This document shows positions 5,465-32,725 of a stretch of 53,097 nt of DNA, piece by piece. Under the pieces are notes generated by a model. It was not told the origin of the DNA. It worked only from the letters and a program-made list of their open reading frames with translations, and ran no database searches. Within the stretch, counting starts at the first letter, position 1. Each line of letters starts with the position of its first letter. Both the position numbers and the translations under genes were made by a program. Origin of the DNA: Bacteroidaceae bacterium (GTDB taxonomy: Bacteria > Bacteroidota > Bacteroidia > Bacteroidales > Bacteroidaceae); assembly GCA_017483665.1 (NCBI GenBank), contig JAFUVM010000078.1, positions 1 through 53,097 on the forward strand. The letters run 5' to 3'.

Positions 5465-5479
5465 TTCTAAAAAGCATTA

Positions 5480-5543: not shown

Positions 5544-5597
5544 AAGTGCTTGCCTACAGCTTGCTTACTCCCTCAGAAGGGTGGGAGAAATGGTAGC

Positions 5598-6058: not shown

Positions 6059-6712
6059 CCCAACCCCAACGATACCAGCACCATGATTCCCTTCCTCTCC
6101 TCGTTCTCCATGCGCTATGACCGCCTGCCCAGGGAAGGTTGCGCAGATGCCGGCTACGGCAGCGAGGAGAACTACGCATACATGGAGGCCAACGGCATAG
6201 AGGCATACGTCAAGTACAACTACTTCCACAAGGAACAGAAGAAGGCCTTCAAGGATGACATCTTCCGTATAGAGAACCTCTACCACAACTCCGCCGATGA
6301 CTACTACGTCTGTCCGATGGGCCAGCACATGGAAAGAGTAGGCACCAGGCGCGACAGGACGGACAGCGGCTACAGGACGGAGAGTGCCGTCTACAGGGCG
6401 GGGAACTGCGAGGGATGCCCGCTCAGGTGGGGATGCTACAAGAAGCGGCAGGGCAACAGAGAGATTGAGGCCAACCACCGGCTCATAGAGTACAAACAGC
6501 AGGCAAGGGACAGGCTCACATCGGAGAAGGGACTCGAACACCGCTCCAAGCGTCCCATAGAGCCGGAGGCTGTCTTCGGGCAGATGAAATACAACATGCA
6601 ATACAAGCGCTTCCGTCACTTCGGCACGGACAAGGTCACTATGGACTTTGCCTTCTTCGCCACCGCCTTCAACATCAAGAAAATGATTGCAAAGATGAAA
6701 AGGACGGCATAA
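6047..6712 (+). pseudogene. IS1182-type transposase, C-terminal remnant
   Basis: The visible part begins around NPNDTSTMIPFL and continues with DAGYGSEENYAYMEANGIEA, which is the C-terminal half of the DDE domain in IS1182-like transposases. The conserved CPMG..C..CPL..C cysteine region and the final FGQMKYNMQYKRFRHFG segment are present. Nothing from the N-terminal half is seen: the frame has a stop at 6023 and upstream sequence matches the BspA-like gene on the other strand. The element is therefore 5'-truncated and cannot move by itself. The first ATG in frame is at 6083, but it is not a real start. Confidence 0.8.
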
Positions 6713-6887
6713 AAGCCCTCTTGAAGTGCAGTTTTTCACTATATACGGGGCTGTATGAGGTCATTCAACCCAATATAAGTAAATTTAGAGATGAAAAAAA
6801 GAAAATCAGCAGTGGAAGAATTGTCGGGGCGAACAAACTGACAATTAAGAGACAAAAAAGAGAATGTGCCTATTTTGACACACCCTC
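6047..6887 (+). mobile_element. Truncated IS1182-like insertion sequence
   Basis: The transposase remnant is followed by about 175 bases without a gene that end in ATTTTGACACACCCTC near 6872-6887. That sequence resembles the outer end of many Bacteroidota IS elements, so it is probably the right inverted repeat. No matching left end is seen, in keeping with loss of the 5' half during or after insertion into the BspA-like gene. The boundary calls are approximate. Confidence 0.5.
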
Positions 6888-6898
6888 TTAGTTTTCCT

Positions 6899-8094
<1,196 letters not shown>

Positions 8095-8150
8095 TTATGA
8101 CGTGATAACGTTATTTCGTTATTTCGAGGTTGTTTCGGCATCCCGATGTT

Positions 8151-8172
8151 CCCCCTAAAGGGGGTTAGGGGG
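8151..8172. repeat. C-rich/G-rich palindromic repeat (family A), mutL-trpS gap
   Basis: CCCCC and GGGGG at 8151-8155 and 8160-8164 pair around TAAA, followed by TTAGGGGGTCC. This is one of six sites of a palindrome family in this window. It lies just after the mutL stop codon and might also act as a terminator on the minus strand. Confidence 0.6.
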
Positions 8173-8176
8173 TCCT

Positions 8177-9979
8177 TTAGCTGAACATCTTGTCTATTGC
8201 CTCCTGCTGGAGGATGGTGAGGATGGTCTTCCCGGTGGGGGAGAGGTTGGGGTTCTCACACTGGAAGAGGTCGCCGATGATGTTTTCCATCTGCACGGGC
8301 GTGAGCACTTCGCCCACCTCGATGGCATTGTGGCGTGCCAGTACGAGGGCGAGCCTGTGGTGCAAGGCATCGGCATGACCGCCGTCCTGCTGCTTGACCG
8401 ACTCCACCATCTCGCGTACGACGGAGAGCGGGTCGTCCTGCCCCGACGGAGCTCCGCCGATGGAGAAGCTGCTGCCGCCCAGCGACGAGATGTCGAAGCC
8501 CAGGGCCCGCACATCGTCGAGCATGGCTGTGAGGACGGCAGCGTCGGAAGGCGACAGCTCGAGCAGCTCGGGGAAGAGCAGCCCCTGCGTGGCGGCATTG
8601 TGCTCCTGCATCTGCCGGAGGTAGCGCTCGTAGAGAATGCGCTCGTGGGCACGTCGCTGGTCGACTATCATCAGGCCCGACTGCACGGCGGTCAGTATGT
8701 ACTGTCCCTTGTACTGGTAGTGCTGCGTGCTGCGGTCCGCCTCGGGGAAAAGGGTTTCATTAGGGGTAAGGAGCCCTTGCTCCATGTCCCTTGCTCCTTG
8801 CTCCATGCCCCTTGCTCCTTCGAACATCTTCTCCCAGTGCCGCACGGGGTTGCGGTTCTGGCTGTGGGTGCTGAAGGGATTGTAGCTGACGTCGAGCTGA
8901 ACGCGGGGTGCCTTGATGCCGGAGAGGTCGCCGCCCTGGTAGGTCGGGATGTCGGGCCGTCCCTCCACGTCGAAGTCGATGGTGGGCACAGCGTTGAACT
9001 TGCCCAAGGCGTCGCGCACGGCTGCCACGACGATGCTCCATATCTCCTGCTCGTTCTCGAACTTGATCTCCGTCTTTGTGGGATGAATGTTTACGTCGAT
9101 GGCGGCTGGGTCTACCGGGAAGAAGATGAAGTAGGGCACCTGTTCGCCCTCGGGGATGAGGTGGTTGAAGGCCTCCATCACAGCATAGTGGAAGCGCGGA
9201 TGGCGCATGAAGCGGCCGTTGACGAAGAGGTACTGCGAGGCGCCCTTCTTGCGGGCCGACTCAGGCTTGCCCACGAAGCCGCTTATCCGGACCAGCGTCG
9301 TCTCCACCTGTACCGGCAGGAGCTGTTCGCTCATCTTCTTGCCGAAGATGTTCACGATGCGTTGCAGGGAACTGCCCGCCGGCAGCTGCATCAGGCTGTT
9401 GCCGCCCGACGTCAGGGAGAAGGTGACGGAGGGATTGACCAGCGCGATGCGCTCAAAGTCCTGTATGATGTTGCCCAGCTCCGTCTGGTTCGTCTTGAGG
9501 AACTTCCGTCGCGCCGGAACGTTGAAGAAGAGATTGTTGACCTCGAAGTTGGCTCCCACCGGACACGAGCATACCTCCTGCCCCACGAAGCGCGAGCCCT
9601 CGATGCTGAGCCGCACGCCCAGATCCTGGTCGGCCGTGCGTGTGGTGAGCCTTACCTGTGCCACGGCCGCGATGGAGGCCAGCGCCTCGCCGCGGAAGCC
9701 CATAGTGTGGAGCTTGAAGAGGTCCTCGGCATGCAGTATCTTCGACGTGGCGTGGCGCTCGAAGGCCATGCGGGCATCCGTCTCGCTCATGCCCTTGCCG
9801 TCGTCGATGACCTGGATGGACGTACGCCCCGCATCCTGCACCAGCACGTCGATGGTCGACGCACCGGCATCCACGGCATTCTCCATCAGTTCCTTGATGA
9901 CGGATGCCGGACGCTGCACAACCTCGCCTGCGGCGATTTGGTTGGCAACAGAGTCGGGAAGAAGGTGTATGATGTCCAC
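8177..9979 (-). CDS. mutL: DNA mismatch repair protein MutL
   Basis: MutL couples mismatch recognition by MutS to strand removal. The GHKL ATPase motifs are all visible: ELMENAVDAGAS at about residue 30, DDGKGM at about 59 and TMGFRGEALASIAAV at about 91-105; the opening DSVANQIAAGEVVQRP is typical. The C-terminal dimerisation domain covers about 420-600. No DQHAxxER..E endonuclease motif of the usual form stands out; the region reads DQRRAHERILYE. The linker at about residues 385-400 contains GARGMEQGARDMEQG, produced by a short DNA repeat. It is the sixth gene of a minus-strand run starting at guaB and starts 52 bases after the small membrane protein gene. Confidence 0.97.
   Translation of the reverse strand: MDIIHLLPDSVANQIAAGEVVQRPASVIKELMENAVDAGASTIDVLVQDAGRTSIQVIDDGKGMSETDARMAFERHATSKILHAEDLFKLHTMGFRGEALASIAAVAQVRLTTRTADQDLGVRLSIEGSRFVGQEVCSCPVGANFEVNNLFFNVPARRKFLKTNQTELGNIIQDFERIALVNPSVTFSLTSGGNSLMQLPAGSSLQRIVNIFGKKMSEQLLPVQVETTLVRISGFVGKPESARKKGASQYLFVNGRFMRHPRFHYAVMEAFNHLIPEGEQVPYFIFFPVDPAAIDVNIHPTKTEIKFENEQEIWSIVVAAVRDALGKFNAVPTIDFDVEGRPDIPTYQGGDLSGIKAPRVQLDVSYNPFSTHSQNRNPVRHWEKMFEGARGMEQGARDMEQGLLTPNETLFPEADRSTQHYQYKGQYILTAVQSGLMIVDQRRAHERILYERYLRQMQEHNAATQGLLFPELLELSPSDAAVLTAMLDDVRALGFDISSLGGSSFSIGGAPSGQDDPLSVVREMVESVKQQDGGHADALHHRLALVLARHNAIEVGEVLTPVQMENIIGDLFQCENPNLSPTGKTILTILQQEAIDKMFS
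8774..8820. repeat. CTTGCTCC/CTCCATG repeat inside the mutL linker
   Basis: CCTTGCTCC and CTCCATG units alternate over about 47 bases, giving the repeated GARxMEQGAR peptide on the minus strand. The repeat falls in the variable linker between the two MutL domains, where insertion is tolerated. Confidence 0.65.
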
Positions 9980-10031
9980 TTTGCTTATGTTGTTTCGGAG
10001 TAATCTGTGTTGTTGGCGTATTTGGAGCGTG

Positions 10032-10325
10032 TTATCTTAGTCCCGTGAGCAGGAAGCGCCACATAACCAGCAGGCCGAAGATGATCAGTATGGCTAAGGG
10101 CCAGCCCAGCTTCGATTCGCTCTCCTTGTGCTTCTTCGCCCGCGGAGTATAGTTGATGAACGTGCCCCGGAACTTGTCGGGGTTGTAGGGCTCGTCGTGT
10201 GCCGGCGCTTCGCCCTGTTCGCGCTTCACGTCATCGACCAGCTTCTGCAGCCGGTCGCGCGACTCATCGGTGTAGATACTCACGCGGCGGTAGCTGCGTG
10301 GCTTCCTCGTGCTGAACAGTTTCAT
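10032..10325 (-). CDS. Small single-span membrane protein of the mutL operon
   Basis: The 97-residue product has a charged, basic N-terminal part and one hydrophobic segment at about residues 74-95 (WPLAILIIFGLLVMWRFLL), so it should be a tail-anchored inner-membrane protein. Its start overlaps the stop of the OstA-like gene by four bases (10322-10325), which suggests translational coupling. Similar small proteins are often found between ostA-like genes and mutL in Bacteroidota. No function is recognised. Confidence 0.8.
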   Translation of the reverse strand: MKLFSTRKPRSYRRVSIYTDESRDRLQKLVDDVKREQGEAPAHDEPYNPDKFRGTFINYTPRAKKHKESESKLGWPLAILIIFGLLVMWRFLLTGLR

Positions 10326-12190
10326 GGGTTGTCGTCTTTATTGTCGTTGGTTTTGTCGTCCTTGCCGGTCTCGTTCTCTTTGGCGGCCTCGACATCCTTG
10401 TTTTCTCCTTCGTCCTCCTTGCCTGCCTCAGCATCCTTGTTTCCCTCTATGGTCTCAGGGACTGTCTCCTCCCCCTCGGGGGAGGTTGGGAGGGGGCTTG
10501 AGGTTTGGTCTTGGGCGGGACTTATCCCTCTCTGCTTCTTGATGTCGCTGAGCCTCTGCTTGGGCGCAGCATGGCGCACGCTCTCCTTCAGCTCGCTGCC
10601 GGCCTTCTTGGGGCGCCACTCGAAGATGTCGTCCTTGTTGAGCGGACGTATGTAGTCGAACCATGCGAAGTTCTGCAGGTAGAGCATGTTCTGCGGGATG
10701 AGCGGGATGGGGTACATGGTGCCTGTGGCGGCAGGCATCCAGATGCGGTCCACCTTTCTGTCCGTCAGGAACATCTTTAGCAAAGTGGTCTCCGTATGGT
10801 TCATCTCCACCATGATGCTGTCTTCGTCGAAGGGATAGTAGTTGACGAAGACATTGCCCTCGGAGGTGGACAGATACATCTCCCCGTTCTTGAAGTAGGA
10901 ATGCATCTCGTGTCCTGCCACTTGGTTGTAGTGCGTGTCGTCGAGCCGTTCCACCGAAAGCGCCTGCCGCAGCACCCGGGTGCTGTCGATGGTGCTGTCG
11001 TTGAAGAAGATCTGTATCTCTTCGCCCAGCTGCTGCTGTCCGGCTTGCCAGAGGATAGGGTCGCGGTACATGACGAGGATGCTGTCGCGTGTGTCGTAGA
11101 CCATCGAGTCGCACACCGCCTGGAGGTCGCGGCGGAAGGCTCGCATGTGGTGGTAGGCATGTACGACGCGGTAGGTGGAGTCCGTGTCGAGGTTGAAGGT
11201 GAAGACCTTGAACGTGTCGGCATGGGCGTACATCGTGTCCTTCTGGCTGTAGTCGATGGAGACGGCACGGTCGGTCGTCATGACGTATTCGGTGCTGTCC
11301 TCGTAGTAGCAGTACTCGCCGGTGAACATGTTCTTGTTGACGGCATCGGAGTAGACCACGTTGCCGAAGGCCTCGGCCGTGGACTTGTCGTTGTTCCACA
11401 CCACGCTGTCGCCCACGAGCCGCTTGCCGTTGTTGGTCAGAATGCTGCGGTCCAGCAGATGCGAGTGCTTCGTCTGCGTGTAGTAGTAGCCCAGCTCGGA
11501 ATAGATGTGGTTCTCGCCGTTCTCGATGTTGGAGGGGCCTACGATGTGCGCTATGGCCGTCAGCGTGTTGTAGTGCAGCGTGTCGGAGATAAGCACCGTC
11601 TCAGGCTTGGCAGGAGGCGCGGGGTTGACCAGCCGGACATTGTAGTTGAAGACGGATTCGCGTGTGGCCGGGCTGTATTCGCCCCAGTCGCTGGTCAGCT
11701 CGTTGTCTTGGTCCAGGAGCCGTCCGCCCTCGAAGAAGTATCCGAGGTCGTAGAGGCGGTCGTAGTCGAGGCTGTCCGTGTAGATGGTCGTGGTGCCGTG
11801 CTCGAGCACGACATCATAGCGGGCCCGTGCCAGCTGGTCGAGGCCGTTGTAGTAGAGCACTTCGCTGTGGAGCAGGAGCGTGTCGCCCTGGTTCAGGAGG
11901 ACATGCCCGAAGGCATCAAGGGAGTTCGTGGATTCGTAGAAGAGCGCGCTGTCGCAGTAGAGCAGGGCGCCGTCGTGGCTGAATTGTACGTTGCCCACCA
12001 GGAATTGTGCCGTGCGATGCTTCCGCTCGTCGAAGAAGAGGCGGTCGGCATGCAGCAAGTGCACCTTGCTGTCGGACGGCGGCCTGTTCTTGTCGGTCCG
12101 ACGCTGGGGCGTTACTGCCATAAGCAGGCAAAGGCCAAAGAACAGTGACGCACAGAGGATGTATAGCCGCTGACCTTTCACTTTACCCAA
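10322..12190 (-). CDS. OstA/LptA-like envelope protein
   Basis: The 622-residue protein begins with one N-terminal membrane segment or uncleaved signal (about residues 8-26) and then has a long beta-repeat region of the OstA-like type, with SKVHLLHADRLFFDERKHR and later 'YxTxxxxGNV' style repeats. Proteins of this fold carry lipopolysaccharide across the periplasm, so a role in LPS transport is inferred. The first 13 bases overlap the end of the surA-like gene, indicating coupled translation. The C-terminal 70 residues are low-complexity and acidic and include SSPLPTSPEGEETVPE, which is the translation of a palindromic repeat. The tail is unlikely to be needed for the core function. Confidence 0.85.
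   Translation of the reverse strand: MGKVKGQRLYILCASLFFGLCLLMAVTPQRRTDKNRPPSDSKVHLLHADRLFFDERKHRTAQFLVGNVQFSHDGALLYCDSALFYESTNSLDAFGHVLLNQGDTLLLHSEVLYYNGLDQLARARYDVVLEHGTTTIYTDSLDYDRLYDLGYFFEGGRLLDQDNELTSDWGEYSPATRESVFNYNVRLVNPAPPAKPETVLISDTLHYNTLTAIAHIVGPSNIENGENHIYSELGYYYTQTKHSHLLDRSILTNNGKRLVGDSVVWNNDKSTAEAFGNVVYSDAVNKNMFTGEYCYYEDSTEYVMTTDRAVSIDYSQKDTMYAHADTFKVFTFNLDTDSTYRVVHAYHHMRAFRRDLQAVCDSMVYDTRDSILVMYRDPILWQAGQQQLGEEIQIFFNDSTIDSTRVLRQALSVERLDDTHYNQVAGHEMHSYFKNGEMYLSTSEGNVFVNYYPFDEDSIMVEMNHTETTLLKMFLTDRKVDRIWMPAATGTMYPIPLIPQNMLYLQNFAWFDYIRPLNKDDIFEWRPKKAGSELKESVRHAAPKQRLSDIKKQRGISPAQDQTSSPLPTSPEGEETVPETIEGNKDAEAGKEDEGENKDVEAAKENETGKDDKTNDNKDDNP
10468..10495. repeat. Palindromic repeat (family A) inside the OstA-like gene
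   Basis: CCTCCCCC at 10468-10475 and GGGGGAGG at 10478-10485 form an 8-bp stem, followed by TTGGGAGGGGGC. It is read in frame by the OstA-like gene and yields the SSPLPTSPEGEE peptide in its acidic tail. Confidence 0.7.
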
Positions 12191-13530
12191 CCGTCATATT
12201 GAAAATCGCAGTTCCGCCAGTCCGGATTGATGCGAATGTATGTGCTCTGTTGCTTCTCCTTTATCCATTTCCGAATTGCCTCCTCACCTTTTTTCTGCTT
12301 CACGACGTTGTTCAGCACCTGGAAGTCTTCGGTGACGCTTGCTCGGTGTGTCGTGGTACGGTTCTTGAGGCGGGCGATGGCGCAGATGGTCATGCCCCTC
12401 TTGTTGAGCATTGTGAAGGGCTTCGAAATCTCGCCGACCTCCAGGGGGTCGACCACACGGGCCAGCTCGGGCGAGAGGGCGGAGAGCTCGCTCATTTCGA
12501 AGCGAGTGGTGGTCTCGCCCGTCTCCTTCAGGTTGGACATGATGCCGCGGTTGTTGCGTGTGTCCTTGTCGTCCGAAGCATAGCGAACGGCATCCTCGAA
12601 GGAAATCTTTTCGCTCTTGATGTCCTTGGTGATGGAGTCCAGGATGACCAGAGCGCTGTCGATGTCGGCCTGTGCCACCTCGGGGCGCTTCAGGATGTGG
12701 CGGCACTTCACCTTGTCGCCGCGCTTGTCGATGAGCTGTATGATGTGGAAGCCAAATTCGCTCTGTGCAATTTTGCTCACCTTCTTGGGGTCCGTAAGGC
12801 TGAAAGCTACGTTGGCAAAGCCCGGGTCGAGCTCGCCTTTACCCATGTAGGGCATCTCGCCGCCTTGACGTGCCGACCCCGGGTCTTCGCTGTAGAGGCG
12901 AGCCAGGGTGGAGAAAGAAGTCGTGCCGCTGTTGACACGCTCGGCATAGTCGCGTAGCAGGGCCTTGACGCGGTCTATCTCGGCCTGCGGGATGCGCGGC
13001 TGCAGCACGAGCAGCTGCACCTCCACCTGTGTGGGGATGAGCGGCAGGCTGTCCTCGGGCAGGTCCTTGAAGTAGCGGCGTACCTCGGCGGGCGTCACCT
13101 TGATGCTGGATGTGAGCTGTTCGCGCATACGCATTGCCGTGGCTTCGTTCCTGTACTGTTCGAAGAGTTCCTCGCGTATCTGCACCATAGGCATCTTCAT
13201 GTACTCCTCGAGCTTCTCCTTCGAGCCAGCCACCATAATCTTCTGATTGATGTCGTTCTCGACAAATTGGTTGACGTCGGCATCGGTCACGTTGATGCTG
13301 TCGATGATGGCCTGGTGCAGGAAGAGCTTCTGTATGGCCAGCTGTTCGGGTATGACACAGTAGGGGTTGCCTTTGATTTGCGAGCCGTAGTCCAGGCGGC
13401 GCTTCTCGATGTCGGAACGCAGAATGGCCTCGTCGCCCACAATCCAGACAACTTCGTCGATGACATTCTTCTGTGCCACGGAGAGCAGGCTGCAGAGGAC
13501 TGAAACCAGGCAGAGTGCGTATCGTTTCAT
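12178..13530 (-). CDS. surA: SurA-like periplasmic peptidyl-prolyl isomerase
   Basis: This 450-residue protein has a cleavable signal peptide (about residues 1-19) and SurA-type architecture: an N-terminal chaperone segment (DEAILRSDIEKRR) and two parvulin-like domains at about 170-270 and 275-380. The first has the conserved ARLYSEDPGSARQGGEMPYM and FGFHIIQLIDKRGDKV. SurA escorts unfolded outer-membrane proteins through the periplasm. It lies 12 bases after a second parvulin gene and overlaps the OstA-like gene, so these envelope genes form one unit. The symbol is given by family; the second domain is more diverged than the first. Confidence 0.88.
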   Translation of the reverse strand: MKRYALCLVSVLCSLLSVAQKNVIDEVVWIVGDEAILRSDIEKRRLDYGSQIKGNPYCVIPEQLAIQKLFLHQAIIDSINVTDADVNQFVENDINQKIMVAGSKEKLEEYMKMPMVQIREELFEQYRNEATAMRMREQLTSSIKVTPAEVRRYFKDLPEDSLPLIPTQVEVQLLVLQPRIPQAEIDRVKALLRDYAERVNSGTTSFSTLARLYSEDPGSARQGGEMPYMGKGELDPGFANVAFSLTDPKKVSKIAQSEFGFHIIQLIDKRGDKVKCRHILKRPEVAQADIDSALVILDSITKDIKSEKISFEDAVRYASDDKDTRNNRGIMSNLKETGETTTRFEMSELSALSPELARVVDPLEVGEISKPFTMLNKRGMTICAIARLKNRTTTHRASVTEDFQVLNNVVKQKKGEEAIRKWIKEKQQSTYIRINPDWRNCDFQYDGWVK

Positions 13531-23228: not shown

Positions 23229-24074
23229 TTGAGTTTGCACAAGCTTTCCCCCGCCGTCCTCACCCTGCTCATCTTCCTTCTGATGCAGGGAGTGGGCACA
23301 GCAGCCCTGTTCGGCATAGGCATCTTCCTTTCGCCAGAATTTGCTTTGGCTCTTAGGGAATTTGCCTGCGGTACGACGGACGAGCTGCCTCTGTTCACCG
23401 CATTGCCTGTTTCGTTCTTCGCGCTGACCCTGATGGCAACCAACATCTTGGCCGTCATTGTCTGCCGCTTCGTGCTGCACAACATCTGTTTCAGGTCAAC
23501 TTTCGACGTCTCTTCTGTCAACTGGCAGCCAGGCATGCTGGCGCTGCTCGGCGGCATCTTCGGCGCCATTGGCATGTCGGTCGTGACCGATTCCGTCGAG
23601 ATGCCCGACTCCATGCAGCAGGCATCACTGGCTCTGTCGCACAACATGTGGGGCTTGCTTACACTTGTTGTTGTCGGCCCCGTCACCGAGGAACTCCTCT
23701 TTCGCGAGGCCATAGCAGGCGAGATGCTGCGCCGTGGTGCCGCTCCTTGGGCGGCCATCCTCATCTCGGCGCTCTCCTTCAGCGTCGTGCACCTCAACTT
23801 TGCCCAAGGCATCTATGCGCTCCCCCTCGGCATCCTGTTCGGCGTTATCTATTACAAGACCGGAAACATCGTGCTCTCCTCCGTGCTACACATATTTAAT
23901 AATGGTATGGTTGCACTTCTGCTTTGCGTCTCCGGCAGCGACTTTGCCGACGCTTCTTATGCAGATTGGTTCGGCGGGATGACTATACCTTATATAATAA
24001 TGTCATTTAGCTTCGTGCTTTGTTGTGCCTTGATGTACGTATTTTGGCATCGATATTCACCCTGTGAAGAGTAA
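23229..24074 (+). CDS. CPBP family intramembrane metalloprotease
   Basis: The 281-residue protein has about seven or eight hydrophobic segments. The CPBP (Abi/Rce1) motif PVTEELLFREAI sits at about residues 151-162; the further conserved histidines are seen in SVVHLNFAQG and LHIFNNG. Such proteases process membrane proteins or protect against bacteriocins; the substrate is unknown. The frame begins with TTG one base after the upstream stop codon, which fits translational coupling; the next ATG, at about 23283, would cut into the first membrane segment. The gene ends 234 bases before the coiled-coil lipoprotein. Confidence 0.82.
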   Translation: MSLHKLSPAVLTLLIFLLMQGVGTAALFGIGIFLSPEFALALREFACGTTDELPLFTALPVSFFALTLMATNILAVIVCRFVLHNICFRSTFDVSSVNWQPGMLALLGGIFGAIGMSVVTDSVEMPDSMQQASLALSHNMWGLLTLVVVGPVTEELLFREAIAGEMLRRGAAPWAAILISALSFSVVHLNFAQGIYALPLGILFGVIYYKTGNIVLSSVLHIFNNGMVALLLCVSGSDFADASYADWFGGMTIPYIIMSFSFVLCCALMYVFWHRYSPCEE

Positions 24075-24200: not shown

Positions 24201-24208
24201 TACCTTTG
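24201..24208 (+). promoter_or_regulatory. Promoter of the coiled-coil lipoprotein cluster
   Basis: TACCTTTG is an exact -7 box. It leaves an untranslated leader of about 95 bases, A-rich near the ATG (TTAAAAAATG), as in strongly expressed Bacteroidota envelope genes. I see no gene in 24075-24308. Confidence 0.65.
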
Positions 24209-24308: not shown

Positions 24309-27300
24309 ATGAAAAAGAAACTCATTCAATCACTCACGCTACTGTTAGTGGCAGTATGTGTGGGAGCGTTCGTATCTTGTAAGGATACCAACGAGGATTT
24401 GTACAACGAGTATCGTGCAGAAGCTGCTGGGCAGTCCCTGACTTTGCAGCAGAAGCTTGAGGAGCTTGAGGGAAAAATAGCTGACCTCAAGTCGTGCACG
24501 TGCGACATGACTCTCGCCAACAGAGTAGAAACCCTTGAAGGGTTGGTTGCTGCCCTGGGTGGCGGCGGCAGTGGCAGCGTCGTTGACATTCTCGATGACT
24601 ACATTGACGATTTGCTTGGAGGTGGCTCCGGTAGCGGTGGCTTAACATTGGAGGACATTATTAGTATCGTTAACAACCTCCAGGGCGACGAGGGTGATTT
24701 AGCAAAGATCTACAATACCCTTGAGACTTATGGTAACGACATTACTACTATCCTGACAACGCTTCAGACTCATGGCGACAACATCCAGCTGCTTCTCACA
24801 AACCAGGCTGCTGCACAGGAGCTTCTCGCCAGCACGATTGAAGATCTGACAGCTCTCCAGGAAAAGGTTAATAACATCAAGCAGTGCGAATGCGACTTCA
24901 CTACCCTTTGGAATGCCATCCACGATCTGGAAGCTGGTCTGGCTGCTGCCGAGGCAAAGGCACAGAACGCAATGGATTTGGCTACAGCTGCCAACACAAC
25001 TGCCAACGAGGCTAAGCTGACTGCAGACGAGGCTAAGACTGCTGCTGATGCTGCAACAACAATCGCCAATGCAGCTACTGATTTGGCTCAGAAGGCTGTT
25101 CAGACTGCTGCAAATGCAGAGGACCTCGCTAAGGCTGCCGGCCTGACCGCACAGGAGGCTAAGGACTTCGCAGAATCTGCTAAGGCAAGTGCTGAGAATG
25201 CCCTCACTATCGCCAATAATGCAATCAGCGTTGCAACAACAGCCCAGACTACGGCAACGGCAGCTCTGGACCAGGCAAATGCTAATAAGGAGGCCATCGA
25301 TCAGCTCAAGAATGATATTCAAATCATTCAGACCACCCTCACACAGTATGGCGACCAGATTAACCTGAATACAACAAACATTCAGAAGAACGCTGATGCC
25401 ATTGCTGATGCAGTGAATAAGATTGAGACTAACGCTGCAAACATTCAGAAGAACGCTGATGCTATCGCTGATTTGCAGACTCAGATTACAACTGTTAGCC
25501 AGACTGCTGCCGAGGCTCTTCAGAAGGCAATCGATGCAGACGCTAAGGCAGAAGCCAACAAGTTGGCCATCGATAACCTGAAGCCCGCAGTTGAGGCCAA
25601 CACCGCAGCTATTACAGAACTTCAGAAGAAGACTCAGACTCTCGAGACCAACGTCACGAACCTCCAGACGGCTGTCAACAACCTCACCACTCAGGTTGAG
25701 AACAACACCACAGCTATCACCAACCTGAACAACACCGTCAACAACTTGACAAATCAGGTCAACACAATCGAAAGCACCGTCAACGACCTGAAGACTACGG
25801 TCGAACAGCACACAACCCAGATTGCTCAGTTGCAGCAAGACCTTGCTGACGCTAAGGCAGAATGTGCAGCTAACCTCGCAACAGCAAAGGCTTACACCGA
25901 CGCTGAGATTGCTGCTGCCAAGACTGCTATCCTGGCCGAGGTTGCCACTATGCTGGAGAACTACTATACAAAGGATAAGGTCTACACCAAGGAAGAGGTT
26001 GACGCTCTGCTCGATCAGCTCGATGTCAAGATTGAAGGCAATACCGTTAAGATTACGACTCTTGATGGCAGGGTTTCTACTCTCGAAACGACTGTCGACG
26101 GACACACTAGTAGCATCAACGCCATCAATGAAGAGATTGAGTTTATCAAGCAGCACCTTTGCGAGTGCGAGCCTGTTGACCTCACCGATATCCTGCAGCG
26201 TCTGACCGATGCTGAAGGCAACATTGGCAAGAACACTGAGGAGATCGAAAAGATTAAGCAGGAGATTGCTGACGTCATCAACAAGAACATTGAGGAGCTG
26301 GCAGAAAAGTATGATGACCTGAAGACTGTTATCGACAATCTGAAGTATGTTACTCCCGAGGAGCTGGACGACGTTGTTGACGCTCTCGTGGCTAAGGCTC
26401 AGGCCGACTCTACTGCCTTCAAGGAGCGCATGGACGTCATCGGCGACTCTGTCAAGACTGCTTTCCAGGACATTATCGACCTGAAGACTCTCGTCAACAC
26501 TCTCGAGAGCACAACAGTCAAGATTGACGACTATACAGCTGACAAGGAAGAAATCCTCAACAAGATTGATGCCAACACAACCAAGATTGAAGATGTTCAG
26601 GATGCAGTTGATGCCATCCAGGGTGAACTCGATGCATTGCAGGACGAACTCGATGAGCTGAACGACCGCATGGATGTTGCTGAGGCTAACATCGAGCAGG
26701 CTCTGGAGGACATTCAGGACCTCAAGGATGAAGTGTCAGCTGTTCAGGAGTTCCTCGCAAAGCAGGTAACCGGCATCATCATCCAGAGCACATACAATCC
26801 TGCCTTCGGCACACTGGATCTGCCCTTCGACGTTCAGTCCAACATCCTCGTTGCTTACTATGGCAAGCCCAAGAATGACGTTGAGTTCCCCACTTCGCGC
26901 ACAAGTAATTATGTACGCCCGGAGGAAGCTCTCACCGAAAAGGATATGGAGATGATTAACGGCGTTGAGGTCTTCGAACACATGGCCAACATTCCTCTCA
27001 TGTTCGAGAACAACTATGCTGGTAAGGTTTACATGACCATCAATCCCAACACTGCCGACCTCACTGGTCTGGAGCTGAGCATTGTCAACACTCAGGACAC
27101 TGAGTCTCCCATCAAGCTCGAAGGTGTGAAGAAGAGCACAGAGAAGCTGAAGTTCGGCTACACTCGTGGCGACAATGGCTTCTACGAGGCTGAAGCTGTC
27201 GTTGCACCCGTTGATGTTGAGAAGGTTGATCGCATAGCTGTTGACAAGGCTGCCCTCAAGGAAGCTTATAACGAGATTGCAAAGAATCGCCTCAATGCAA

Positions 27301-28901
27301 ACATCTCACAGGTAGCAACCGATTTCTATAAGTTTGTGAAGTCCGTTAAGCTTAACAAGAGCGGTCTGAAGTGCTCTTACACAGAGAACGGCAACACACA
27401 CTCTGTTTACTCTAATTACAATCTGGCTGCTACAGCAATCGATCCTCTCGACTTCGCTTCTTACAAGGACCTGAACTACCAGACTGTTCCCGGTTATGCA
27501 CGTGTCAACAAACTGCTCGACAGAATTTCCAACAGGGTCAACAATGAAGTACACGTATTCTTCAAGAACTTGAATGGAAACGGCATCACCGAGAAGCTCG
27601 CCAACCTTGAGATCAAGAAGATTGTCGTGAAGGACCTCAGCGAAGACCTCTTGGCAAAGTTCGACCTTGAGATTAACGAAGACTTCGAGATTGAAGGTCT
27701 GTCCTATCACCTGCAGCTGAACAAGGTTGTTGATGTTCCCGTCAAGTTTGATAAGGAGCTTTCAATTAACCTTAAGGGTCTGACAATTCCCATCAATATC
27801 CAGAAGGATGTAGAAGTTGACCTTACTGGTGTTGAGGTAAACACTCCCACTGTTGTCGTAACTGGTAAGGCTAGTGGTGAGGCAAATGCAGGAGCGGAAA
27901 TAGATCCTGTAACAAGTCTGCCTGTAAGAGATCCGGTTACTAATGAAATTGTCTTGAAGACGATACTCGTAGTTCCTATCTATACAAGCGAAAATCCTGC
28001 ACCGGGCGAGACTCCTGTAGGCTATGCACAACTTGATTTGGAGGACATCAAAGTTAATGCAGATATCAATGCCAGTGGTACTGCTGGTGATATCACGCTT
28101 AACGGTAACCCCGTCGCTCATGTTGAAATCAATCAGGATGTTACAATCGATGATGACCGATATGTTACATATGACTTGCATGTTGACGAGACCTTCCAGA
28201 CAACTATCAACATCGACGAGTGGTTCTACTTCGGTGACAACGGTACAGACAAGAAGACCTTCCACTTCGAGAAGACAATCAGCATGAGGAATGCAGTCGA
28301 GGAGCTCTGGGGCAATGCTCAGGATGCAATCGGCAGTGTTAACACCATGCTGGATCAGCTCCGCGACCTGGTTGATGCCGTCAACAGTGCCCTGAATCAG
28401 ATTAACAGCTACGAGGATAAGATCACAAGCACTGTTGATTCCTACATTGATCGGGTACGCAGCTACATTGACAGAATCAACAGTAAGATTGTCGGCTTTG
28501 TCAACAATACCAACAGCCGCTTCCAGCCCTTCATGGTTGCTGCAGACACCAAGGGTATCAAGAACCTGAGCGGTAGTAAGAACTATCCCACTCTGCTGAC
28601 GAAGGAGATTTCTCTCTATCCCACTTCTAAGACAATGGAGCTCCTCGTTCCCATTGCCAGAAAGCATGTCGCTGTCACCAACGTCTTCAAGGGTGAGGCA
28701 AGTGCTCAGGGTGGCGATGCCGACTGTCAGGCTCGTCTGAAGGATGCCAACACCGGCAAGCTCAACACCGTGCTGGATGGTAACATTCGTCAGATTGCCC
28801 TGAGCGGCCTGAAGAGTGGCTATGTATACGAGATTGCATACTCTGGCCTTGACTTCCACGGCAACATTGCTACTCGCAAGTACTATGTCTCTGTGAAGTA
28901 A
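24309..28901 (+). CDS. Giant coiled-coil surface lipoprotein
   Basis: The 1530-residue protein starts with a lipoprotein signal ending at Cys24 (FVSC) followed by KDTNED, which resembles the Bacteroidota export signal for surface lipoproteins. Residues about 40-840 are mostly heptad coiled coil with low-complexity Ala/Asn/Thr repeats (INLNTTNIQKNADAIAD and similar). Three CxC pairs are seen: Cys63/65, Cys193/195 and Cys618/620. YTKEEVDALL at about 559 resembles phage tail-fibre and trimeric-adhesin stalk motifs. Residues about 850-1380 look beta-rich, then a short coiled coil precedes a C-terminal domain. Codon use favours AAC, AAG and GCT, as in highly expressed genes. A trimeric or dimeric stalk is inferred; I recognise no named family. 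An OmpA-family gene follows after 36 bases. Confidence 0.85.
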   Translation: MKKKLIQSLTLLLVAVCVGAFVSCKDTNEDLYNEYRAEAAGQSLTLQQKLEELEGKIADLKSCTCDMTLANRVETLEGLVAALGGGGSGSVVDILDDYIDDLLGGGSGSGGLTLEDIISIVNNLQGDEGDLAKIYNTLETYGNDITTILTTLQTHGDNIQLLLTNQAAAQELLASTIEDLTALQEKVNNIKQCECDFTTLWNAIHDLEAGLAAAEAKAQNAMDLATAANTTANEAKLTADEAKTAADAATTIANAATDLAQKAVQTAANAEDLAKAAGLTAQEAKDFAESAKASAENALTIANNAISVATTAQTTATAALDQANANKEAIDQLKNDIQIIQTTLTQYGDQINLNTTNIQKNADAIADAVNKIETNAANIQKNADAIADLQTQITTVSQTAAEALQKAIDADAKAEANKLAIDNLKPAVEANTAAITELQKKTQTLETNVTNLQTAVNNLTTQVENNTTAITNLNNTVNNLTNQVNTIESTVNDLKTTVEQHTTQIAQLQQDLADAKAECAANLATAKAYTDAEIAAAKTAILAEVATMLENYYTKDKVYTKEEVDALLDQLDVKIEGNTVKITTLDGRVSTLETTVDGHTSSINAINEEIEFIKQHLCECEPVDLTDILQRLTDAEGNIGKNTEEIEKIKQEIADVINKNIEELAEKYDDLKTVIDNLKYVTPEELDDVVDALVAKAQADSTAFKERMDVIGDSVKTAFQDIIDLKTLVNTLESTTVKIDDYTADKEEILNKIDANTTKIEDVQDAVDAIQGELDALQDELDELNDRMDVAEANIEQALEDIQDLKDEVSAVQEFLAKQVTGIIIQSTYNPAFGTLDLPFDVQSNILVAYYGKPKNDVEFPTSRTSNYVRPEEALTEKDMEMINGVEVFEHMANIPLMFENNYAGKVYMTINPNTADLTGLELSIVNTQDTESPIKLEGVKKSTEKLKFGYTRGDNGFYEAEAVVAPVDVEKVDRIAVDKAALKEAYNEIAKNRLNANISQVATDFYKFVKSVKLNKSGLKCSYTENGNTHSVYSNYNLAATAIDPLDFASYKDLNYQTVPGYARVNKLLDRISNRVNNEVHVFFKNLNGNGITEKLANLEIKKIVVKDLSEDLLAKFDLEINEDFEIEGLSYHLQLNKVVDVPVKFDKELSINLKGLTIPINIQKDVEVDLTGVEVNTPTVVVTGKASGEANAGAEIDPVTSLPVRDPVTNEIVLKTILVVPIYTSENPAPGETPVGYAQLDLEDIKVNADINASGTAGDITLNGNPVAHVEINQDVTIDDDRYVTYDLHVDETFQTTINIDEWFYFGDNGTDKKTFHFEKTISMRNAVEELWGNAQDAIGSVNTMLDQLRDLVDAVNSALNQINSYEDKITSTVDSYIDRVRSYIDRINSKIVGFVNNTNSRFQPFMVAADTKGIKNLSGSKNYPTLLTKEISLYPTSKTMELLVPIARKHVAVTNVFKGEASAQGGDADCQARLKDANTGKLNTVLDGNIRQIALSGLKSGYVYEIAYSGLDFHGNIATRKYYVSVK

Positions 28902-28937
28902 AAAACGAAACGTCGAACCAGAAAAAAGAGAACAACT

Positions 28938-30086
28938 ATGAGAATTAAAGATATTATCATGTCTGTTGCCCTGTTTGCCGGATGCCTCACAGCATCCGCG
29001 CAGCAGGGAGCAGCTGCGCCCAGCGAGGAATTCAATCCTCACTGGTACGTTCAGGCTCAGGGTGGTGCACAGTACACACTGGGCGAGGTATGTTTCGGCG
29101 ACCTTATTTCCGGTACTGCTCAGATAGCAGGCGGCTACAACTTCACTCCCGTTTGGGGTGTGCGTCTTGCTGTCAACGCTTGGCAGAGCAAGGGCGGTAC
29201 TCATTTGGACTATCTCGGGCTTGGCGACAAGACCTGGAAGTATAATTATGTAGCTCCCACTGTTGATGTTGTCTGCGACCTCAGCAATTGGATTCTCGGC
29301 TACAAGGCAAAGCGTGTCTGCAACTTCGGTCTGCTGGCCGGCATCGGCGCCAACATCGGTTTTGGCAACGGTGAGGCCGGCGATGTCAGGGATGAGGTTT
29401 TGGCAGCAAGTGGCTATACACTTGACCCCGCCCACCTTATGTCCCTGTACTGGGACGGCACCAAGGCTCGTGTCGTAGGCAAGCTCGGCGCTTTCGTTGA
29501 CTTCAACCTGAGCCGTCGCGTGTCTCTCGGCCTGGAAGTGAACTGCAATCCGACTACCGACAGCTACAACTCCAAGAAGGCCGGCAACGGCGACTGGTAC
29601 TTCAATGCACTGGCTGGTGTGAAGGTAAGACTTGGCAAGGTGAGCCGCGAAGGTCAGCCTGTTGCTGCTTCTGCACCTGTTGTTGTAGAGAAGGTTGTGG
29701 AGAAGATTGTAGAGAAGCCCGTCGAGAAGATTGTCTACAAAGATGCTCCTGCTGCAAAGCGCGAGCCGCTCCGTCGCGACATCTTCTTCAACATCCGCGG
29801 TTCTCAGGTCAGCAAGACCGAGATGCCTAAGGTGGAGGATGTTGTGGCTTACCTCAACAAGTATCCCGAGGCAAAGGTTACCGTTACCGGTTATGCCGAC
29901 AAGGGCACTGGCAACCCGAAGATCAATGTGGGCTATGCTCAGAAGCGTGCCCAGATGGTGGCCGACCTGTTGGTTAACTCGTATGGCATTTCCCGCAGCC
30001 GCATCACTGTGGACAGCAAGGGCGACACCGTTCAGCCTTACGAGCAGAACGACCTGAACCGTGTCAGCATCTGTGTTGCCGAATAA
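28938..30086 (+). CDS. OmpA-family outer membrane protein
   Basis: The 382-residue product has a signal peptide (to about residue 21, TASAQQ), an N-terminal beta-barrel of about 215 residues, a linker of repeated VEK units (VEKVVEKIVEKPVEKIVYK, about 251-269) and a C-terminal OmpA domain (about 275-382) with FFNIRG, VTVTGYADKGTGN and NVGYAQKRAQMVADLL. OmpA domains bind peptidoglycan, so the protein should tie the outer membrane to the wall. It follows the coiled-coil lipoprotein by 36 bases and is probably on the same transcript; a hairpin follows it. Confidence 0.9.
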   Translation: MRIKDIIMSVALFAGCLTASAQQGAAAPSEEFNPHWYVQAQGGAQYTLGEVCFGDLISGTAQIAGGYNFTPVWGVRLAVNAWQSKGGTHLDYLGLGDKTWKYNYVAPTVDVVCDLSNWILGYKAKRVCNFGLLAGIGANIGFGNGEAGDVRDEVLAASGYTLDPAHLMSLYWDGTKARVVGKLGAFVDFNLSRRVSLGLEVNCNPTTDSYNSKKAGNGDWYFNALAGVKVRLGKVSREGQPVAASAPVVVEKVVEKIVEKPVEKIVYKDAPAAKREPLRRDIFFNIRGSQVSKTEMPKVEDVVAYLNKYPEAKVTVTGYADKGTGNPKINVGYAQKRAQMVADLLVNSYGISRSRITVDSKGDTVQPYEQNDLNRVSICVAE

Positions 30087-30115
30087 TTACAGAGTTATCG
30101 GCTGATACAAGAGAC

Positions 30116-30156
30116 ATTCCCCCGTCATTCTGCTTCTGGCGGAGTGGCGGGGGAAT
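30116..30156 (+). terminator. Hairpin after the OmpA-family gene
   Basis: ATTCCCCCG at 30116-30124 pairs with CGGGGGAAT at 30148-30156, with further partial pairing inside. No T-tract follows, so it may weaken transcription into the next gene or protect the mRNA end. Confidence 0.5.
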
Positions 30157-30189
30157 TCAGTTAAGAATTAATATTTGCTTTTGTTTATT

Positions 30190-31389
30190 ATGAATAGACT
30201 CTTCACATATCTGTTCGTTGCTTCTTTATTGAGCGTCGGAACAGTCAAGGCACAAAACGGAACCGGCTTTATCGGTAACGGCTATTACCGTGTCAGCAAC
30301 CTTGCTACCAGTCGTTACATCTATGTGACGGACAACAAGGACTACTACGATATGGCACGCGACAGGGAAGATTTTCAGGCTATACAGTTATGGAAGGACG
30401 TCAACCGTTATGCGTCCGACCCAGGCAGTGTTATCTACATCGAGCAGGTGACCAGCGACCATTTCGACCTCAGGGCGCAGGGCACGGGTGTCCATTCGCT
30501 GACGGGCTACTATGTTGGCGTCACGAAGAGTTCCGGCACCTACATTGTCTCGGCCAGTGTGACTAAGGCTGGCATGGAGGTGACCAAATATCTGACCGAT
30601 ACCGAACAGAGTTCGTCGGACCAGGGAACTATGGGTACAACCGGCAAGCTGAACTACCGTAAGTGGATAGTGGACAAGATAGAGACGGACCATGCCACCA
30701 ACTATTTTGGCATCAAGCCCACGATAGAGGTTGGCGGCAAGTATTATCAGCCGTTCTATGCTGCGTTCCCCTTCAAGGTGTCGAGTGCCGGAATGCACGT
30801 CTACTACTTAGAAGAGGTGGAGAGCAAGTACGCTGTCTTGAAAGAAATCGAGGGCGAGGTGCCTGCCGCTACGCCTGTCCTCATCGAGTGCGCTACGACC
30901 GATCCGTCGACTAACCGTATTGAGCTTCTTGCCTCTTCTTCGGCCAAGGTGACGGGCAACTTGCTTGGTGGCGTTTACTTCTGCAATGGCAAGCGCCCGC
31001 AGGAGTCGGTCGATGCCTACACAGCCTTCGATGCAGAGAAGATGCGTGTCTTCTCGGTTGTCGACGGCCAGCTTGTCATCACAAACAATGCCGATGCCCG
31101 CCTCAGTGAGATAAAGACAGTCGACTATACCACTTACTCCATGATAAAGGTGAAGTGCCTTCCTGCCAACACGAGTTACCTGAAGGCCGGTGCCGATACT
31201 CCGGCAGAGGTTCCTGTGTTCGTAGACGGCAATGTACCCGACGCCATTGGCAGCATCTTGGCTGAGCAGAAGCCGACGGCCGAGGGAGTCTATTCTCTCA
31301 GCGGCACGCAGCTCCGTTCTACAGGCGATTTGCAAGGACTGCCAGCAGGCCTGTATATCGTGAACGGGAAGAAAGTAGTGATAAGATAA
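30190..31389 (+). CDS. Secreted protein with GLYIxNGKK tail
   Basis: The ATG at 30190 opens a signal peptide (MNRLFTYLFVASLLSVGTVKAQ) and gives 399 residues; the frame is open five codons further up but without gain. The body starts with GTGFIGNGYYRVSNLATSRYIY, reminiscent of ricin-like or other beta-trefoil starts in Bacteroidota. The C-terminus ends GLPAGLYIVNGKKVVIR, the same tail type as the LamG protein at 1-4641. I do not recognise a catalytic motif. Its place after the OmpA-family gene suggests a role in the same surface structure. Confidence 0.75.
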   Translation: MNRLFTYLFVASLLSVGTVKAQNGTGFIGNGYYRVSNLATSRYIYVTDNKDYYDMARDREDFQAIQLWKDVNRYASDPGSVIYIEQVTSDHFDLRAQGTGVHSLTGYYVGVTKSSGTYIVSASVTKAGMEVTKYLTDTEQSSSDQGTMGTTGKLNYRKWIVDKIETDHATNYFGIKPTIEVGGKYYQPFYAAFPFKVSSAGMHVYYLEEVESKYAVLKEIEGEVPAATPVLIECATTDPSTNRIELLASSSAKVTGNLLGGVYFCNGKRPQESVDAYTAFDAEKMRVFSVVDGQLVITNNADARLSEIKTVDYTTYSMIKVKCLPANTSYLKAGADTPAEVPVFVDGNVPDAIGSILAEQKPTAEGVYSLSGTQLRSTGDLQGLPAGLYIVNGKKVVIR

Positions 31390-31419
31390 CGAAGAGACAG
31401 CCATATATAGTATAATAAT

Positions 31420-32655
31420 ATGTACGCGCGTATGAGGAAGCTTGCAACCGTTTTGTTCGTCCTGTCCGTGTCGGCTGCGATGTCGGCCCAGGAGGGCGGG
31501 AAGTCTTTCACTTCTGTGTTGGCCCAGAAGAACATCCTGAACCACATGGACGTTGGTGTCAATGTCGGCACGATGGGTGTCGGCGTCGATGTGGCGGTGC
31601 CTGTGGGCAACTATGTGCGCGTACGTGCCGGCTACCACTATATGCCTCGTTTCACCATCAACTCCGACTTCCCTGTCGAGACACGCGGCGGCAGTCTCAG
31701 CGAGTCGGACCTGAAGCGTTACATGGGCAAGATGAACCAGGTGACCGACATCTTGGAACAGAACGGTCTCAGCCTCGACAACTATCCTACGGAAAAGGCG
31801 CTGATAGACAAGTTCAATGGCGTGGACCTGAAGGACAAAGTGTCGATGGGAATGCGCCCCAGCATGCATCAGTTCAAGCTTTTGGTGGATGTCCTTCCTT
31901 TTAAGAACAACAAGCATTGGAGCCTGACGACTGGCATCTTTGTCGGTCCGGCGCAGGTGGGCGATGCTTGCAATCGGGACAGTGAGACGCAGCTGCTGCA
32001 GGCCATCAATGCCTACAACGACCTGTACGTCATGTCGTGCAAGTGGGATTTGTTTGGCGGCGCGGATATTTCCTACAATGGCAGGAACCTTCGCGAGACG
32101 TTTGCCCAGATGGGCGTTGCTGGCTTTCCTTTGGGAACGTTCAGCAGGGACGTTACGCGCGTTGTTACCGACGAGAACGGCGAGGAGCAGACGATTGTGG
32201 CAAGGCAGGGCACTAAGGCAATCATGGTGCCTTCTGCCGACGGCGCTGCACGTGCTGTGATGGAGGTAGCCAAGGTTCGCCCCTACATCGGGTTTGGCTA
32301 CAATACGCATCTCTCTCGCAACAAGCGATGGCGGCTGAACGTCGATGCAGGCGTGATGTTCCTTTGCGGCGCCCCGAAGGTGTACGTTGACAACGTCTAC
32401 ACTGTCGACGAGACGCTCATCGACCTCGACAAAGAGATGTACGACATCGTCCGTGCCAACGAAAACTACGACTACAGTGTTCCAGAAGACCCTGTAACAA
32501 ATCCGATGTATATCGTCGACACCCCTCTGTCGCACGTCGACCTGATTCGCGATGTGAAGGGAATCCCCGGCAAGGTGGGCGACCTGGTGGACGTTGTCTC
32601 CAAGTTCAAGGTCTACCCGAATGCTACGGTGACGTTCTCGTACAGGTTGTATTAA
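31420..32655 (+). CDS. Outer membrane beta-barrel protein of unknown function
   Basis: The product (411 residues, or 407 from the ATG at 31432) has a signal peptide ending AAMSAQ and then alternating beta-strand patterns (VGVNVGTMGVGVDVAVPVG, VRVRAGYHYMPRF) that end in TVTFSYRLY, a C-terminal aromatic typical of barrel proteins. The central part around residues 90-130 is helical. No named family is recognised. It is the last gene of the plus-strand cluster and is followed by a good terminator at 32670. Confidence 0.75.
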   Translation: MYARMRKLATVLFVLSVSAAMSAQEGGKSFTSVLAQKNILNHMDVGVNVGTMGVGVDVAVPVGNYVRVRAGYHYMPRFTINSDFPVETRGGSLSESDLKRYMGKMNQVTDILEQNGLSLDNYPTEKALIDKFNGVDLKDKVSMGMRPSMHQFKLLVDVLPFKNNKHWSLTTGIFVGPAQVGDACNRDSETQLLQAINAYNDLYVMSCKWDLFGGADISYNGRNLRETFAQMGVAGFPLGTFSRDVTRVVTDENGEEQTIVARQGTKAIMVPSADGAARAVMEVAKVRPYIGFGYNTHLSRNKRWRLNVDAGVMFLCGAPKVYVDNVYTVDETLIDLDKEMYDIVRANENYDYSVPEDPVTNPMYIVDTPLSHVDLIRDVKGIPGKVGDLVDVVSKFKVYPNATVTFSYRLY

Positions 32656-32725
32656 GGCCCCTCTCCAAACCTCCCCCAAAGGGGAGGCTTTTTTGTTTTT
32701 GGGGGAGGTTGGGGTGAGGGGAGGA
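32655..32725. repeat. Palindromic repeat (family A) after the beta-barrel gene
   Basis: CCCCTCTCCAAACCTCCCCC is followed by AAAGGGGAGG, then on the far side of a T-run by GGGGGAGGTTGGGGTGAGGGG, so two copies face each other. The first copy doubles as a terminator. Confidence 0.7.
32670..32697 (+). terminator. Rho-independent terminator of the surface cluster
   Basis: CCTCCCC (32670-32676) and GGGGAGG (32681-32687) form a 7-bp stem with a CAAA loop, followed by CTTTTTTG. It lies 15 bases after the stop codon at 32655. Confidence 0.75.

Follow-up and report, generated by a model that had tools for sequence, protein, structure and literature searches.

What kind of structure is built by a 1530-residue coiled-coil lipoprotein whose gene is followed at once by that of an OmpA-family protein? 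The question is raised by a locus at positions 24,309 to 32,655 of a 53,097-nucleotide (nt) stretch of Bacteroidaceae bacterium DNA (assembly GCA_017483665.1, contig JAFUVM010000078.1), the whole of which was analyzed and is called the window here. The source genome is 3.06 Mb and rated 78% complete. Four genes lie in a row on the same strand, and are referred to as LP (protein P0001), OmpA (P0002), P3 (P0003 in the window) and P4.

24309..28901, + strand: LP, giant lipoprotein of 1530 residues (signal peptide 1-23, lipidated Cys24, stalk 25-805, head 806-1530)
28938..30086, + strand: OmpA-family partner with an N-terminal barrel-like region, a VEK-rich linker and a C-terminal OmpA domain (residues 283-371)
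30190..31389, + strand: P3, which looks secreted and belongs to a weakly beta-trefoil-lectin-like family; its C-terminus is a sorting-type tail (31300-31386)
31432..32655, + strand: P4, resembling an outer-membrane beta-barrel protein (start at 31420 or 31432)

Our preferred answer, to which we give somewhat better than even credence on the strength of the sequences, is that the four genes encode a trimeric stalk on the cell surface, anchored by lipid and braced by OmpA, resembling a trimeric autotransporter of inverted polarity.

Named genomes were scanned for relatives; 222 were obtained, and the best 80 of these, from 72 named loci, were kept. Together with 16 other loci and the window these made 89, from which seven were removed: one without a match to the start of the head, three without a recognised lipobox, and three sharing a contig with a named locus (L129, L130 and L143). 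The resulting set of 82 LPs holds close relatives (L097 and L099, for example), and because several are closely related its counts are not independent; the shuffles used for comparison keep the residue composition but neither the heptad pattern nor the relatedness. Sixteen same-genus loci, which mostly repeat contigs of named loci, were not added to the latter. Since genome bins are incomplete, the absences given below are soft.

The LP signal peptide ends in a lipobox, FVSC, with Cys24 as the lipidated residue, which bears out the 1530-residue lipoprotein (24309-28901) that the first-pass annotation of this DNA had proposed. A lipobox with Cys at +1 was recognised in 85/88 LPs, and two of the three misses start at a contig end. 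Behind the lipid cysteine, +2 is Lys in 79/85 and +3 is Asp in 84/85 LPs, and positions +2 to +7 hold 3.2 acidic residues as compared with 0.8 in a small and redundant control set of 41 other predicted lipoproteins from the same loci. The mature window protein begins CKDTNED, an acidic start that resembles an export signal. There was no YadA-type anchor among the Pfam and NCBIfam matches of P0001 up to an E-value of 0.1, and the C-terminus is the conserved head domain. Searches with Pfam, NCBIfam and PDB profiles aimed at naming LP returned coiled-coil-type matches and no fitting family; a single NCBIfam match, LA_3659, lies above its cut-off and falls on the coil, and outside the coil no Pfam or NCBIfam model describes the protein. 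The longest relative has 1,735 residues.

Behind the anchor comes the stalk, in which two features were mapped.

24381..26723, + strand: coiled-coil stalk of 781 residues (25-805)
25359..26117, + strand: nine IxxN[T/A]xxI / VxxHTxxI layers in one heptad register (residues 351-603), a trimer signature

The stalk is rich in A, T, L, D, E and N and contains 0.4% proline. Heptad (3.5) periodicity is clear in scan windows spanning about residues 127-504 and 715-840 of LP, whereas between about 505 and 714 only a weak heptad signal is left and a 3.6 signal takes its place in part. By a threshold of our own, 84% of the residues lie within scan windows with a heptad-range signal, and the roughly 800 residues of coiled coil claimed earlier are confirmed as a stalk of about 780. 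A coiled coil rises 0.15 nm per residue, which would make the window stalk about 116 nm long if it were continuous. Across the 82 LPs stalk length runs from 80 to 1002 residues (about 12-149 nm), with a median of 418.5. Direct DNA repeats within the stalk gene are spaced by whole codons in 24/24 listed cases and by multiples of 21 nt, that is by whole heptads, in 10/24.

The core positions point to the number of chains. In the layer region of the window, where the nine N or H layers span residues 351-596, position a is mostly I or V and position d mostly L or N. Across the 82 stalks IxxNTxxI occurs 78 times versus 3.8 in shuffled sequences, being present in 38 proteins, and IxxNAxxI occurs 78 times versus 6.5; when the Asn of IxxNTxxI was exchanged for Asp, Lys, Glu or Ala the pattern did not occur at all, and with Gln it was found three times versus 3.0. 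Asn at core position d is enriched 6.6-fold ([IV]xxNxxx[IV], 280 versus 42) and His at d 8.8-fold ([IV]xxHxxx[IV], 23 versus 2.6), as against 0.86-fold for Asn at a between Leu residues (30 versus 35); a looser pattern for Asn at a, which admits I, L or V, gave 258 versus 152. We take IxxNTxxI as such to be a mark of trimers. Asn triads at d that hold a chloride ion are described as recurring in trimeric coiled coils (PMC12933892), and Asn layers are reported for trimeric autotransporters (PMC6173795). Judged by these statistics, the stalk is very probably a parallel trimer.

Paired cysteines form a second regular feature of the stalk, and the three CxC pairs noted earlier at segment borders were all confirmed.

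24495..24503, + strand: CxC pair 1 (residues 63/65), at the stalk base, a conserved paired-cysteine site
24885..24893, + strand: CxC pair 2 (residues 193/195)
26160..26168, + strand: CxC pair 3 (residues 618/620)

The 82 stalks contain 308 cysteines after the lipid cysteine, and these form 95 CxC pairs versus 2.5 in shuffled sequences, 64 of the 95 being directly followed by Asp. The second commonest short spacing is Cx3C, with 24 cases. Either CxC (44) or Cx3C (17) is found 30-65 residues past the lipid cysteine in 61/82 LPs, and because two different spacings occupy one place, the paired cysteines at the base suggest a disulphide staple. Coiled coils of the matrilin and fibrinogen types, which are eukaryotic, are stapled by disulphides through CxC or Cx3C beside the coil; LP is unrelated to them but likewise has CxC or Cx3C beside a coiled coil, its staple being putative.

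The remainder of LP is the head.

26724..28898, + strand: conserved head of 725 residues (806-1530)

It consists of a conserved part (about 810-960), a variable middle, a second helical segment (about 1335-1400) and a conserved terminal domain (about 1410-1530), and no Pfam family reaches its cut-off in the window head. The non-stalk part of the 82 LPs has a median of 652 residues (range 320-838, some being cut by contig ends), and a variable stalk beside a near-constant remainder favors display over the spanning of a fixed gap. The head diverges faster than OmpA in 54/54 loci, namely those named loci in which all four genes were found, the lipobox is recognised and OmpA has at least 360 residues; median identity to the window is 43% for the head versus 61% for OmpA. 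Such rapid divergence is expected of, and consistent with, a surface part.

With respect to the partner, the OmpA gene begins 36 nt after LP, and the OmpA-family protein claimed earlier (28938-30086) was verified by a PF00691 match of 49.1 bits (cut-off 27.2). P0002 also matches PDB 9uu2 (E 3.8e-15), and its N-terminal barrel-like region scores 28.2 bits against OMP_b-brl, just below the cut-off of 28.7. Asp321 and Arg337 are invariant in 24/24 aligned sequences; we assume them to be the peptidoglycan-holding residues, a role known from Acinetobacter OmpA, the correspondence being judged by eye. Many OmpA-domain models match P0002, and among them is the NCBIfam model for TpgA, with a weak 32.3 bits (cut-off 350). 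Major OmpA-like proteins of Bacteroidales, of the Pgm6/Pgm7 type, combine a barrel-like N-terminus with an OmpA domain. P0002 shares this layout but differs in that the occurrence of its subclass coincides exactly with that of LP among 37 same-genus genomes: the strongest class of matches (E 6.9e-156 or better) was found in exactly the 17 genomes that have LP, and the next-best match was 1.5e-132. In the genome of the window, the OmpA profile also finds two weaker matches.

The first-pass annotation had asked whether the four genes stay together in other genomes. An OmpA gene follows LP on the same strand in all 64 named loci with more than 1.5 kb of room, and both OmpA and P3 follow in 60 of the 61 with more than 3 kb; among the 16 other loci, three of which repeat named contigs, both are kept in 15, and L135 has neither. 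LP, OmpA and P3 are therefore together almost always, and the claim holds for these three but less strictly for P4, which in the 55 named loci with more than 6.5 kb of room lies on the same strand in 37, on the opposite strand in 14 and was not found in four. P3 at E < 1e-80 was detected in the 17 LP genomes and in two more of the 37, with weaker matches in three further genomes; in G007, one of the two, the contig stops inside OmpA. OmpA relatives without LP were seen beside P3 in L177 (G016; 8441-9523 and 9618-12650) and, between two other large secreted-looking proteins, in L179 (G029; 4780-12747). The OmpA class is thus one that has other partners than LP. In four loci an extra lipoprotein-like gene of 204-215 residues lies between LP and OmpA (L054, 12166-12780; L111, 11773-12420; L137, 9159-9785 on the minus strand; L144, 8247-8894).

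A lipoprotein encoded with a partner that carries a peptidoglycan-binding-type domain could also be described as a wall-tethering pair. LP would then be periplasmic, a giant Lpp-like coiled-coil tether or spacer between the outer membrane, the wall and perhaps the inner membrane, with OmpA as its partner on the wall side. The assignment of LP to the surface is itself drawn from sequence, which leaves room for this explanation; we regard it as unlikely, though the most serious of the alternatives. It fits poorly with stalks that vary more than 12-fold in length, many of them several times the depth of a periplasm, with the acid-rich, export-signal-like start of LP, with the fast divergence of the head, and with linkage to P3, a family whose members can carry adhesin repeats.

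The P3 reading frame was started at the ATG at 30190 and not at the TTG at 30175, because Met1 is invariant in the alignment. RicinB_lectin_2 was matched by 16/31 family members up to E 1, with a best E of 0.0016. Of 26 P3 relatives that exceed 450 residues, ten were scanned, and all ten show strong matches to Big_2, MBG_2 or InlB-type repeats, located between the trefoil-like part and the tail. Dockerin_1 was matched in one of the 31 members (E 3.1e-11); the P3 relative at L100 12829-13989 ends in a dockerin-like stretch in place of the usual tail. The tail of P3 itself (31300-31386, about GIYIVNGKKVVIK) matches 23 places in the genome at E <= 1, itself included. Of 20 such matches examined, again including P3, 19 end within three codons of a stop and the twentieth within five, mostly in large proteins. 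The curated type IX sorting model TIGR04183 finds four places in the genome, the P3 tail not among them, and is matched weakly by 3/31 P3 members (best E 0.0073); a tail of about this form thus ends many proteins of the genome and is poorly caught by that model. SprA is present in the genome (SprA_N, E 3.7e-218) and was matched in 0/14 control genomes. From its tail and the presence of SprA, P3 is probably cargo of type IX secretion. For P4 the start is probably 31432, as Met5 counted from 31420 is nearly invariant. P4 shows a weak structure match to CarO (4rl9, E 6.2e-4), OMP_b-brl is matched weakly by 5/32 members, and 55/58 relatives end in F, Y or W.

The distribution of the unit is patchy. 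LP relatives were found in 16/36 same-genus genomes, and outside the genus that search gave one weak match confined to coiled coil. A profile of the head detected LP in 82/399 genomes of the family (the window's own included), belonging to 10/30 genera; in the order it was found in 4/295 genomes, namely the window's own and three from other families, and in the class in 1/295, the window's own. A ruminant or the rumen is named in 39/72 named records, the remaining records giving codes only. The GH92 gene upstream in the window is present in 8/16 same-genus loci and was not seen in the other eight, one of which begins at a contig end, so that the unit is kept in different surroundings.

These habitats, the nearby GH92 gene, the weakly trefoil-lectin-like P3 family and the one P3 relative with a dockerin would all suit a nutrient-capture arm, in which LP and P3 bind plant or host glycans for delivery to the cell and not for attachment. 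We consider this explanation rather improbable, since the GH92 gene was not seen in half of the same-genus loci and a stalk of this length seems beyond the needs of uptake, no search aimed at neighbouring SusCD or glycan-utilisation genes having been made.

Signals for expression were located at three places around the genes.

24201..24208, + strand: Bacteroidota-type -7 box TACCTTTG (TAnnTTTG), about 100 nt before the LP ATG
30116..30156, + strand: hairpin in the OmpA-P3 gap (19-pair stem, G-U included, 3-nt loop), a putative attenuator or 3'-end stabiliser
32670..32687, + strand: terminator-like hairpin and T-run after P4

TAnnTTTG, which we take to be the Bacteroidota -7 consensus, is present within 300 nt upstream of LP in 79/81 loci (shuffle mean 13.5, largest 19), and TTG stands 17-23 nt before the box in 41/81 (shuffle 1.8). 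Upstream of OmpA, P3 and P4 the box was found in 1/67, 3/64 and 9/58 cases; the low counts before OmpA and P3 are partly due to those upstream regions being largely coding. A single promoter probably serves LP, OmpA and P3. A hairpin of at least 10 pairs, bulges allowed, is present in the OmpA-P3 gap of 63/70 other loci, with sequences that differ between groups, and mostly lacks a T-run (at least five T in the next 10 bases in only 19/70); it may keep P3 low through partial termination or 3'-end protection. Overall scans gave no excess of terminator hairpins (7 versus 7.4 shuffled) and no clear excess of sigma-70 promoters (11 versus 7.0, standard deviation 2.5), and the Rfam search gave two matches up to E 1, both far below their gathering scores.

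Codon use was scored against tuf (a fragment), rplK, rplA, rplJ and rplL. LP (0.757) and OmpA (0.745) take second and third place among 30 open reading frames in the window, behind SecDF (0.765) and near rpoB (0.742) and rpoC, while P3 (0.604) and P4 (0.639) are ordinary. The earlier suggestion that codon use hints at an abundant product therefore applies to LP and OmpA, whose usage is ribosomal-like, but not to the other two; by this measure LP and OmpA look like the abundant core, with P3 and P4 as lesser or looser members. The same ribosomal-like usage, together with the conserved promoter box, would be expected of an abundant structural coat, an S-layer-like or fibrous layer with no specific ligand and with OmpA as its bulk anchor. 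We judge this quite improbable: the patchy occurrence of the unit in the family and the extreme variation in length fit a coat poorly, and a conserved head suggests a ligand.

One last motif had given the protein a likeness to tail fibres.

25983..26012, + strand: YTKEEVDALL motif (residues 559-568), not family-wide

The motif was confirmed, at residue 559, but as a mark of the family it did not hold up: a relaxed pattern finds it in 15/82 LPs. CxC is found in 51/82, and for this reason neither motif defines the family. That a phage-tail or injection-system fibre was taken over by the cell is very improbable, as the weak PHROG matches to tail-fibre, tape-measure and fibritin families lie mainly on the coil (one of them, phrog_1330, extends into the head) and the coil has matches to SMC, Rad50 and other proteins as well, a lipobox is present in nearly all LPs, and a Pfam scan of 10 neighbours, in the window only, named no phage structural gene. 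The PHROG matches are mixed with SMC-like and tape-measure families; because they lie mainly on the coil and the motif is in 15/82 LPs, a phage-tail origin was set aside.

Our favored reading of the locus is a lipid-anchored trimeric stalk. LP would be exported to the cell surface and form a parallel homotrimer, held in the outer membrane by its N-terminal lipids. The three-stranded coil would lift the conserved C-terminal head off the cell, and the paired cysteines near the base would staple the three chains. Co-expressed OmpA, lying in the same membrane, would tie the assembly to peptidoglycan, and we propose that a pulling force on the stalk would thereby be borne by the wall. P3, lectin-like and probably exported by the type IX route, and P4, a small outer-membrane barrel, would assist at lower expression, perhaps as a lectin at the tip or as a factor for assembly or anchoring. 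The anchor would be N-terminal and the head C-terminal, with lipid in place of an autotransporter barrel, and adhesion would be a natural role for such a stalk. A surface stalk anchored to lipid and wall had been suggested by the first-pass annotation, and it remains the best reading of the lipobox, the OmpA linkage and the trimer signature; the exposure, the fibril and the wall contact are what we infer from these.

Among known systems the trimeric autotransporter adhesins (type Vc) come closest. AtaA of Acinetobacter has, like LP, a long trimer-type stalk and a head at the far end, Asn layers being reported for autotransporter adhesins (PMC6173795), and its co-operonic partner TpgA has, like the LP partner, an OmpA-type peptidoglycan-binding domain (PMC5861075). 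Unlike them, LP is a lipoprotein with an N-terminal anchor, a C-terminal head and no YadA-type anchor match. TpgA is reported to be a non-lipoprotein that reaches the outer membrane through AtaA (PMC5861075), whereas P0002 carries its own barrel-like region at the N-terminus. The nearest lipoprotein case is SadA/SadB of enterobacteria, in which the genes of a trimeric adhesin and a trimeric lipoprotein go together (PMC3953254). The lipoprotein there, SadB, is small, sits in the inner membrane and aids export of the adhesin, whereas LP is itself the giant stalk, so that the roles are exchanged. Surface-exposed lipoproteins of Bacteroidota share with LP a lipobox followed by acidic residues at +2 to +7, and the export signals tested in them were K-(D/E)2 and SDDDD (PMC5080379).

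Several observations weigh against the stalk as we describe it. The LP start CKDTNED resembles these two signals yet matches neither exactly, which sets it apart from surface lipoproteins whose signal is known, and the acidity comparison depends on the control set noted above. Six of the 82 stalks have no heptad signal at our threshold, and the shortest relatives, with stalks of 80-93 residues, would hardly clear the lipopolysaccharide. The trimer motif is neither universal (IxxNTxxI in 38/82 stalks, [IV]xxNxxx[IV] in 60/82) nor exclusive to stalks, as the heads hold 14 copies of [IV]xxNTxx[IV], a count given without a shuffle comparison. Paired cysteines at the base are lacking in 21/82 LPs. 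The promoter had been called strong-looking, which stands as regards the box but not the upstream element, since the window promoter has no TTG 17-23 nt before it. With respect to P3, the lectin match is weak, limited to those 16 of 31 members and absent from P0003 itself, which also gives no match to TIGR04183. Named locus L070 lacks P3. In G016, a genome of the same genus, OmpA and P3 are present and no LP relative was found, so that these two are not wholly tied to LP.

Two neighbours in the window were recorded besides. Just upstream of LP, at 23229-24074, lies a gene for a CAAX-type intramembrane protease (PF02517); a gene of similar size holds this position in most loci that share the window surroundings and not in the others read. 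At 76-4638 an open reading frame of 1521 residues has two Laminin_G_3 stretches and may be a further large surface protein.

To our knowledge no Bacteroidota surface-exposed lipoprotein with a long trimeric stalk has been described. No description of the unit was found in the open-access literature searched, nor is one known to us, which agrees with the earlier statement that no described system could be recognised and with the want of a Pfam or NCBIfam model beyond the coil. A wider proposal, which we offer tentatively and would not yet rely on, is that the unit represents a new class of Bacteroidota surface fibre: an inverted, lipid-anchored counterpart of the trimeric autotransporter adhesins, displayed through the outer-membrane route of lipoprotein export, reaching about 150 nm at most, with staples at the base, a dedicated OmpA as brace, a modular type IX lectin as partner, and a stalk length tuned in evolution by gain and loss of heptads. 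If this is true, lipoprotein, OmpA and probable type IX products would be joined in one gene cluster, and Bacteroidota would have a way of their own, needing no autotransporter barrel, to make long trimeric stalks on the surface. One would then have to ask how lipoprotein export can carry chains as long as 1,735 residues across the outer membrane. Given its occurrence in the family and the ruminant or rumen origin of many of the named records, the unit may matter for the attachment of these bacteria to feed particles, to one another or to host surfaces.

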